A stretch of 64,000 nt of DNA, taken from contig JAKSZU010000011.1 of the NCBI GenBank assembly GCA_026018925.1, positions 7,736,985 through 7,800,984 of the forward strand. Reading direction: 5' to 3'. The notes beneath the pieces were generated by a model that saw only the letters and a program-made list of their open reading frames with translations, searched no databases and was not told the DNA's origin. The DNA comes from Tupaia tana (taxonomy: Eukaryota > Chordata > Mammalia > Scandentia > Tupaiidae). The translations under genes were made by a program, and so were the position numbers. Below, in pieces: positions 59,179 to 63,648 of the stretch; the stretch's first letter is position 1; the number at the start of each line of letters is the position of its first letter.

Positions 59179-59426
59179 CCATGTGTTGTTTTATCTCTTC
59201 ACTCAGTTTGAGATCTTTTTGGTTCTTGGTATGATGAATGGTTACAAAACATTTTTGCATTGTGTTACAAGACTTTGTATCTTATTTAAATAGTCATTTT
59301 AACTGGTGTTTTAGACACTGCTTCAGTGGGGGAAGGGGTTAGTCAACTTGTCTATGCCAGAGGGAAGTAAAAATCTGGACACCTCACTTGATTTGATACT
59401 AGGTGTGGTGGGGAGAGCTCCTTTTT

Positions 59427-59534
59427 TTTTTATTTTCATTTTTTATTATTTTTTTATTTTATTATTTTTTTTGTTTTCTTTCTAACCCTAACCCTAACCC
59501 TAACCCTAACCCTAACCCTAACCCTAACCCTAAC
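59427..59534 (-). mobile_element. Telomeric-repeat retrocopy with A-tail (candidate TERRA retrocopy)
   Basis: On the minus strand the insert reads as 52 bp of perfect (TTAGGG) repeats (59483-59534, 8 full units plus a partial) followed by about 55 bp of A-rich tail (59427-59481). It is bounded by a perfect 14-bp TSD, GAGAGCTCCTTTTT, at 59413-59426 and 59535-59548. The nick site TTTTT/AT is close to the L1 endonuclease preference. TERRA is the known G-rich telomeric RNA, partly polyadenylated. That it was the template is inference. Confidence 0.7.
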
Positions 59535-59834
59535 GAGAGCTCCTTTTTATTGCTGGGTGGAGTAGGAGATCCAGCTTCTCTTGTGAGCTCTACAGTCATA
59601 AAAGGGGCCAAGGAGCCCATTACTCCCGTGGAAATGAAAGTCCCATTCCTGGTCTAGCCTTCTCCATGCTAGCTGGGGTGGACCACAGTGGGGTATTGGG
59701 GCATTTTATTACAGCCTCACAGGATGGGTGGAAGTCCCTTCTCAGCCTTTGCTGATGGTGATGGGGTATGGCCATAGTTTCTTCACTGGAATTCAGCTAG
59801 AGTAGAGCAGTTACTGTCTGCCAAGTTTTCTATC

Positions 59835-63097: not shown

Positions 63098-63648
63098 GTT
63101 TTTTTTTTTTTTTTTGAGAGGTTTTCGCTATAGGGTGCGTGCGCTCGCCAGACAGACAGAGAGAGAGAGACAGACAGACAGAAAGCAAGAAATCACCCCC
63201 CAGGGGGATGACCATGCTGCAATCCCTTCTCCTCCATTTTCCTCTCAGGATCTTGGGCACGCATGCACACGCACCCGGCATGAGTTTTTTTTTTTTTTTT
63301 TTTTTTTTGAGAGGTTTTTCGCTATAGGGCGCGTGCGCTCGCCAGACAGACAGAGAGAGACATAGAGACAGAAAGCGAGAAATCACCCCCCAGGGGGGAT
63401 GGTCACGCCGCAATCCCTTCTCCTCCATTCTCCTCTCGGGATCTTGGGCACGCACGCACACGCGCCCGGCGTGAGTTTTAAGCCACCGGGTCCGGGACGT
63501 GAACCGCGGTCGACTACGTGGGAGTCCAGCGACATAGCCATTACGCTAACTGCTGGTTCCCGAGTTTTAAGCCACCAGGTCCGGGACGCGAACCGCCGTC
63601 GACTACATGGGAGTCCAGCGACATAGCCATTACACTAACTGCTGGTCC
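63098..63648 (-). mobile_element. Family A SINE, split by a third SINE
   Basis: TSD CTCTTAGGCAAG at 63086-63097 and 63649-63660 (12 bp, perfect). Its 3' part is 63098-63288 and its head is 63569-63648. Confidence 0.94.
63289..63561 (-). mobile_element. Family A SINE, young, innermost of the nest
   Basis: TSD GAGTTTT at 63282-63288 and 63562-63568. It carries GACATAGAGACAG. A long T-run opens it and CTGCTGGTTCCC closes it. Confidence 0.95.

Follow-up and report, generated by a model that had tools for sequence, protein, structure and literature searches.

Telomeric-repeat inserts with an A-tail and a target-site duplication in Tupaia tana: probable L1 retrocopies of a telomere-type RNA

Introduction

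Work by Nergadze, Santagostino and others has described short interstitial telomeric repeats (ITSs), internal runs of (TTAGGG)n that telomerase puts in at double-strand breaks in a single step. Some of these ITSs have been reported with target duplications, which the relevant passages of PMC7215372 and PMC2246262 ascribe to break processing or to staggered breaks. In PMC7215372, Santagostino and others also found it "tempting to postulate" that the telomeric RNA TERRA might be retrotranscribed at double-strand breaks. A different family of insertions is formed by the retrocopies that L1 mobilises in trans, such as processed pseudogenes, U6 copies and class 1 templated sequence insertions. In the portion of PMC5110952 that concerns us, none of the templated sequence insertion polymorphisms (TSIPs) carries telomere sequence, while three insertions at induced I-SceI breaks had some. 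Here we describe a locus in the treeshrew Tupaia tana in which a telomeric repeat is combined with the anatomy of an L1 retrocopy, together with its relatives elsewhere in the same genome.

Anatomy of the window locus

The window (C220:7736985-7800984) is the whole stretch of 64,000 nucleotides in which the locus was noticed, and the genome-wide searches covered the 2.95-Gb assembly to which it belongs. By direct reading, positions 59413-59548 hold a 108-bp insert bracketed by a perfect 14-bp target-site duplication (TSD). The insert lies in the minus-strand sense. The TSD copy on its A-tail (3') side occupies 59413-59426, reading AAAAAGGAGCTCTC on the minus strand and GAGAGCTCCTTTTT on the plus strand. 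It is adjoined by the A-rich tail (59427-59481, direct read), of 55 nt and 82% A on the minus strand and T-rich on the plus strand. The telomeric repeat follows at 59482-59534 and reads GTTAGGG(TTAGGG)7TTAG on the minus strand, with TTAG adjoining the tail, and (CTAACC)n on the plus strand. The TSD copy on the 5' side, at 59535-59548, reads GAGAGCTCCTTTTT on the plus strand, followed by ATTGC. An earlier note on this DNA had reported a perfect minus-strand run of 52 bp joined at its 3' end to a 55-bp A-rich tail, all within a perfect 14-bp TSD. Upon re-reading, the tail and the duplication stood as described and the run proved perfect, its length being instead 53 bp by direct reading and by TRF (59482-59534, period 6, matches 100%). 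From the geometry of the TSD, the first strand would have been nicked on the plus strand between 59548 and 59549, at TTTTT/AT (AT|AAAAA in the sense of the insert), a site like those cut by the L1 endonuclease.

The duplication is distinctive within the window. The 14-mer GAGAGCTCCTTTTT occurs there twice, both times at the edges of the insert, and of 20,000 placements drawn at random in the window, 20 had a 14-mer in common at a similar spacing. Its score of 14 exceeded all 60 local null draws, the maximum of which was 9. One TSD copy is contiguous with the T-rich tract, which makes the final five T of the duplication ambiguous and leaves nine bases (GAGAGCTCC) unaffected. The array at 59482-59534 is, in addition, the only run of at least two perfect TTAGGG units in the window.

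The entire 108 bp is accounted for by 53 nt of repeat and 55 nt of A-rich tail, the latter starting directly after TTAG. Between the repeat copy and the tail there is no L1 body, and there is no room for a telomerase-RNA flank such as that of TERC-ITS. A repeat put in by telomerase at a double-strand break would be joined to the break ends without an A-tail; here the A-tail sits inside the TSD. What is found at the window locus is a TSD within the 7-20 bp range of L1 retrocopies, a 3' A-tail inside that TSD, an L1-like nick and, as for a retrocopy of TERRA, the G-rich strand in the sense of the A-tail. The expected empty site of the locus is GGGGAGAGCTCCTTTTTATTGC. A whole-genome search with a 26-mer, allowing up to three mismatches, matched the locus itself only, a search with the flanks returned the same locus and one weak 50-bp match, and local BLAST of the joined flanks gave no empty paralogue. 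Elsewhere in the window, two adjacent tandem duplications of SINE-like sequence (63099-63646; 191-bp and 89-bp units, with 90 and 94% matches) were observed.

Recurrence and orientation across the genome

The assembly was searched with the pattern TTAGGGTTAGGGTTAG, that is, (TTAGGG)2TTAG followed by eight A within 20 nt (class i), and with its three mirror arrangements as controls. TTAGGG-then-A yielded 75 matches at 20 places, TTAGGG-then-T 28 matches at 10 places, A-then-TTAGGG 21 matches at 7 places, and T-then-TTAGGG, which is equivalent to CCCTAA-then-A, 9 matches at 5 places, overlapping matches having been merged into places by eye in all four classes. The excess of TTAGGG-then-A over CCCTAA-then-A (20 places versus 5) is what the earlier note had predicted for the genome as a whole. 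The sequences of all 20 class i places were examined, as were those of 9 of 10 TTAGGG-then-T, 6 of 7 A-then-TTAGGG and 5 of 5 T-then-TTAGGG places; the seventh A-then-TTAGGG place is L056, which was already in the examined set. As judged by eye, the mirror classes consist mostly of old, degenerate telomere-like blocks in which a SINE often supplies the run of A or T. Ten of the 15 TTAGGG-then-T and A-then-TTAGGG places (L065-L067, L069, L071-L075 and L077) were assigned to such blocks by eye and left unscored. Long degenerate TTAGGG-like blocks are dispersed in this genome, examples being L067, L071, L078, L088 and L094.

The bias was maintained when only tailed inserts bounded by a TSD were counted across the four patterns: 18 are G-rich (17 from class i plus L063) and one is C-rich (p 7.6e-5). 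The full G-rich catalogue contains 21 inserts, made up of these 18 together with L091 (from an unselected sample), L102 (from a relaxed tail pattern) and L112 (from a two-unit pattern), and it lacks a matched C-rich count, since the relaxed tail and two-unit searches were run in the G-rich orientation only. The single C-rich member, L096 (C264:30382760-30383200), is a degenerate array with an A-tail and an 11-bp TSD. Two other C-rich blocks with an A-run (L098 and L100) have their far ends beyond the scored stretch and stand outside the 18-versus-1 tally. C-rich transcripts of degenerate telomere-like blocks may also be retroposed, and the blocks may spread in this way.

Target-site duplications in tailed and tail-less arrays

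Seventeen of the 20 class i places carry a TSD of 10-18 bp around array and tail, and in each case 0-1 of 60 local null draws scored as high. The exceptions are L057, with a weak TSD (2 of 60 nulls), and L047 and L055, without one. In two A-then-TTAGGG places (L063 and L068) the array is likewise followed by an A-rich tail; the TSD of L063 is clear, while L068, whose TSD is of low complexity, was kept out of the 21, as was L057. The TSD of L102 measures 19 bp. Ten new places came from the two-unit search, among which L112 has a clear TSD, L107 a weak one and the remaining eight none; rescoring of L103, whose array begins upstream of the stretch scored at first, likewise gave no TSD. A chance co-occurrence of array, tail and TSD was considered and rejected on the basis of the null draws and of these two-unit arrays, 8 of 10 of which are without a TSD.

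Arrays devoid of a 3' A-tail behave differently: none of ten discrete tail-less arrays (L082, L086, L087, L089, L090, L092, L093, L064, L070 and L076) has a TSD above its own null, against 17 of 20 tailed places (Fisher p 9.5e-6). L113 (C220:23053600-23054100) was found later, through its TTGGGG units, and is not among these ten. It is a tail-less variant array (TTGGGG, CTAGGG) between two direct 15-bp repeats, ATGAGTCCGAGACGG, and its insertion site does not resemble L1 targets. A TSD alone is thus not diagnostic, whereas a TSD together with a tail is. A genome-wide search for a block of TTGGGG units returned two places only, L113 and L059. Two of the tail-less arrays have unusual surroundings. 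In L076 (C975:55143510-55144050) the TTAGGG repeats run straight into a T-tract beside what by eye is LINE-like sequence, a junction opposite to that of the window, and an endonuclease-independent L1 event is possible there. In L064 (C397:22198350-22198900) an A-run precedes the TTAGGG repeats, and an inverted match (CTTCATGCC / GGCATGAAG) lies on the two sides.

An unselected sample gave a view of telomeric arrays irrespective of their tails. It comprised 17 places outside dense clusters, from among the matches listed (the first ~100 of 1815 four-unit matches); the dense clusters left unsampled are those on C66, C111 near 23.8 Mb, C122, C199, C221, C242 near 20.2 Mb and C245. Eight of the 17 were degenerate blocks by eye (L078, L079, L081, L083, L084, L085, L088 and L094), two of which, L083 and L085, contain local duplications reached by 4 and 0 of 100 nulls, respectively. 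The discrete arrays number 11, L042 and L044 belonging to them besides the 17 places. Three of them have both tail and TSD (L042, L044 and L091), one is ambiguous (L080), and seven, the first seven of the tail-less arrays listed above, have neither. Two kinds of interstitial array, one tailed and duplicated and the other bare, therefore appear to coexist in this genome. Among the bare arrays, L082 (C220:52880400-52881100) is a canonical array of ~5 units inside a SINE, in which, by eye, ~12 bp of SINE are replaced; replacement of this kind is what break repair would produce, and L082 is taken, on inspection by eye, as an insertion of that type. The ambiguous L080 (C111:74469850-74470600) is an A-tailed variant array beside a piece of SINE. 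Its near TSD was reached by 26 of 100 nulls and so lacks significance; a second copy of the 11-mer AAAAATACATG that precedes the array is located 161 bp downstream, on the far side of the SINE piece. It may represent nested insertions or, alternatively, a single array-A-tract-SINE composite within one TSD.

Nick sites and pre-insertion sites

The earlier note had given the nick at the window as TTTTT/AT, and an L1-like nick is also seen among the other members. The base before the TSD is T in 14 of 20 loci with exact, maximal boundaries (L045, one of the 21, is omitted from this count), with p 2e-4 against all bases and p 0.001 against the bases that precede A-runs. The latter background is the fairer one, because A-tails push the TSD boundary to a non-A base. 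Typical insertion sites read TT|AAAA or AT|AAAA, and the consensus of the L1 endonuclease is approximately TTTT/AA.

For three other members, the sequence before insertion could be recognised in repeat copies elsewhere in the genome, LINE-like or SINE, that match the flanks joined through one TSD copy. For L058, the alignment crosses the junction with 84.5% identity over 258 bp, and for L061 it does so without gaps, with 83.9% over 249 bp. The joined flanks of L050 gave 58 spanning matches, some of them from overlapping loci, with the best at 78-79%. These alignments indicate a site that existed beforehand and then received the array, the tail and the second TSD copy. Spanning matches for L043, L052, L056, L063 and L091 were weak, gapped close to the junction or of low complexity, and were not counted.

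Proposed mechanism and alternative explanations

The explanation that we favour, with a probability of roughly 0.84, is that the window insert was produced by L1 reverse transcription, in trans, of a polyadenylated G-rich RNA of telomere type. From the anatomy, its recurrence, the biases in orientation and nick and the pre-insertion sequence of the three other members, we infer that the enzyme was L1 and that its template was RNA. Briefly, L1 would take up in trans a polyadenylated RNA composed of UUAGGG repeats, its endonuclease would nick the plus strand at TTTTT/AT, and the freed T-rich 3' end would anneal to the poly(A) of the RNA. The tail and about nine repeats would then be reverse-transcribed before synthesis stopped, leaving a 5'-truncated copy, and cleavage of the second strand 14 bp away, followed by fill-in, would generate the TSD. 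About 20 further inserts in the genome would have been made by the same L1 route. Variant units (TTGGGG, CTAGGG, TTAGGGG and others) are present in 8 of the 21 inserts, inside perfect or one-mismatch TSDs, and one insert, L059, has seven TTGGGG units in two blocks; this is as expected from the copying of a pre-existing array, and slippage after insertion could explain some of these units. Several observations count against L1 copying, namely the length of the inserts (41-154 bp in the 18 measured), short relative to TERRA, the 3 of 20 class i places without a convincing TSD, the 8 of 10 two-unit arrays that have none, the failure of the searches to find an empty site for the window locus, the lack of subtelomeric sequence in the inserts, and the loci L113, L096 and L080.

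The same order and orientation would result from a capping process, in which L1 primes on the poly(A) end only and telomerase adds TTAGGG to the other overhang before joining, this overhang being a 3' end and, as such, the substrate of telomerase. In a near variant, the L1 enzyme, having started on a different poly(A) RNA, would switch template to a telomeric one. Capping is also consistent with TTAG as the end point of telomerase products, set by the template boundary, and the possible composite at L080 is a structure that capping or such a chimera predicts. Owing to L080, and to the restriction of the relaxed searches to the G-rich orientation, L1 copying is held here slightly less surely, and capping taken as slightly likelier, than would otherwise be the case. 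Even so, we consider capping improbable. If capping occurred, SINE insertions should be frequent targets, but a search for TTAGGG no more than 25 bp from a SINE start gave three matches, only one of them real, with two units and no TSD by eye. The SINE-start motif was counted 7 times in the 64 kb of the window and 11 times across 110 kb of locus sequence, which extrapolates to ~3e5 copies genome-wide; this test covered one SINE family at full length, with 5'-truncated L1 bodies outside it. Across loci, the start of the array falls, by eye, in all six hexamer phases, and TTGGGG-like units are not expected from telomerase. Taken together, the variant units, the spread of phases and the rarity of TTAGGG-SINE chimeras fit the copying of a repeat RNA better than capping.

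The standard ITS route, that is, repair of a break by telomerase or with a captured fragment, the A-rich flank being a coincidence, does appear to operate in this genome, as illustrated by the seven bare arrays of the unselected sample and by L113, duplicated without a tail. As the origin of the window insert, it is nonetheless very improbable: its A-tract is enclosed by the duplication, and the combination of tail, orientation and nick bias is repeated in ~20 loci. Slightly less credible still is an L1 insertion consisting of a tail alone, in which TTAGGG arose later through mutation and slippage. A-tails do grow microsatellites, and the tail of L091 is (AAC)n, but in the 18 inserts compared, TTAGGG keeps to the 5' side and does not mingle with the tail, and at the window perfect repeats adjoin an imperfect tail.

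Nature of the template RNA

The L1 copying favoured above can start from more than one RNA. The earlier note had proposed an L1-made retrocopy of TERRA, and the L1 part of this proposal is well supported. Its other part, TERRA derived from a chromosome end, does not follow from the inserts: in those compared, no subtelomeric sequence separates the array from the 5' TSD, and transcripts can arise from internal arrays as well, which leaves a strict TERRA origin as a candidate. Copies truncated at the 5' end would lack such sequence in any case, so TERRA and an ITS transcript look alike here.

It is possible, although we lean away from it, that the template was a polyadenylated transcript of an internal telomeric array, with L1 doing the rest. 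In hamster, according to the relevant part of PMC13403905, telomeric RNAs are mostly polyadenylated and predominantly derived from ITSs, while ~10% of human (HeLa) TERRA is polyadenylated. For human cells, the data considered from PMC12242772 include ITS transcripts with 3' telomeric repeats, 19 of 79 long ITS sites being enriched in TERRA, with Nanopore reads that have long telomeric repeats at the 3' end. Degenerate blocks are common in the T. tana genome, and L096 resembles a copy of the transcript of a C-rich block. On the other side, 13 of the 21 arrays are essentially canonical, and the A-tail adjoins the repeats with no downstream flank, so that an ITS transcript that stops within its array would require a poly(A) site at that point.

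The junction between repeat and tail bears on the same question. In 9 of 21 inserts TTAG is the last repeat sequence before the tail, where one sixth would be expected (p 0.004; 0.02 with correction for five distinguishable phases), and the remaining junctions, with phases assigned by eye, are TTAGG (3), TTAGGG or TTAGGGG (2), GGGT (3) and TT/TTA (4). In human, mouse and dog cells, the telomere C-strands end mostly in CCAATC-5' (PMC12316455, in the part that deals with these ends), so a run-off RNA would end in GGGUUAG. The excess of TTAG junctions hints at chromosome ends, and it is suggestive only, the idea having been formed after seeing the data. A more speculative proposal, which we regard as doubtful, is that the A-tail junctions record the 3' ends of germline TERRA, produced by run-off at the chromosome end, polyadenylated there and spread by L1. 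If true, the genome would hold a readable fossil record of the run-off and polyadenylation of TERRA, and L1 would move telomere sequence inward.

Comparison with known systems

The L1 route would represent a distinct and countable path for telomeric repeats into chromosome interiors, and would offer an alternative to staggered breaks for those interstitial repeats with both a target duplication and an A-tail. The genome sequence could, in this manner, reveal which telomeric RNAs of the germ line are polyadenylated, and the position of their 3' ends. PMC11626172, in its pertinent portion, describes interstitial telomeric repeats as breakage-prone, and the planting of repeats by L1 would therefore matter for genome stability.

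Titles and abstracts of the open-licence literature, with most subscription papers outside it, gave no report of A-tailed, TSD-bounded retrocopies of telomeric repeats. As to wording, "tail" and "polyA" are absent from the main text of PMC2246262, as are "A-rich", "adenine" and "poly A" from the available text of PMC7215372, and the main text of a 2026 catalogue of L1 chimeras (PMC13174262) is without "telomer", "TERRA", "TTAGGG" or "TERC".

The short ITSs inserted by telomerase share with the present loci the short internal (TTAGGG)n and the one-step insertion, and differ from them in that here an A-tail lies inside the duplication and the nick is of L1 type. With the retrotranscription postulated in PMC7215372, the common element would be TERRA as the template; section 12 of that article, where the idea is put forward, names no locus with L1 anatomy. 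TERC-ITS, as presented in parts of PMC8537989 and PMC2246262, likewise combine telomeric repeats with sequence reverse-transcribed from RNA, but they are flanked by telomerase-RNA sequence, while the window insert is repeat and A-rich tail alone. The closest resemblance in anatomy is to the processed pseudogenes, U6 copies and class 1 templated sequence insertions that L1 mobilises in trans, with which the window insert has in common the TSD, the A-tail, the L1-like nick and the apparent 5' truncation. It differs from them in its RNA, which here is a telomeric repeat. The loci described would thus very probably constitute L1 trans-retrocopies whose RNA belongs to a new class, and with them a separate route by which interstitial telomeric repeats arise.
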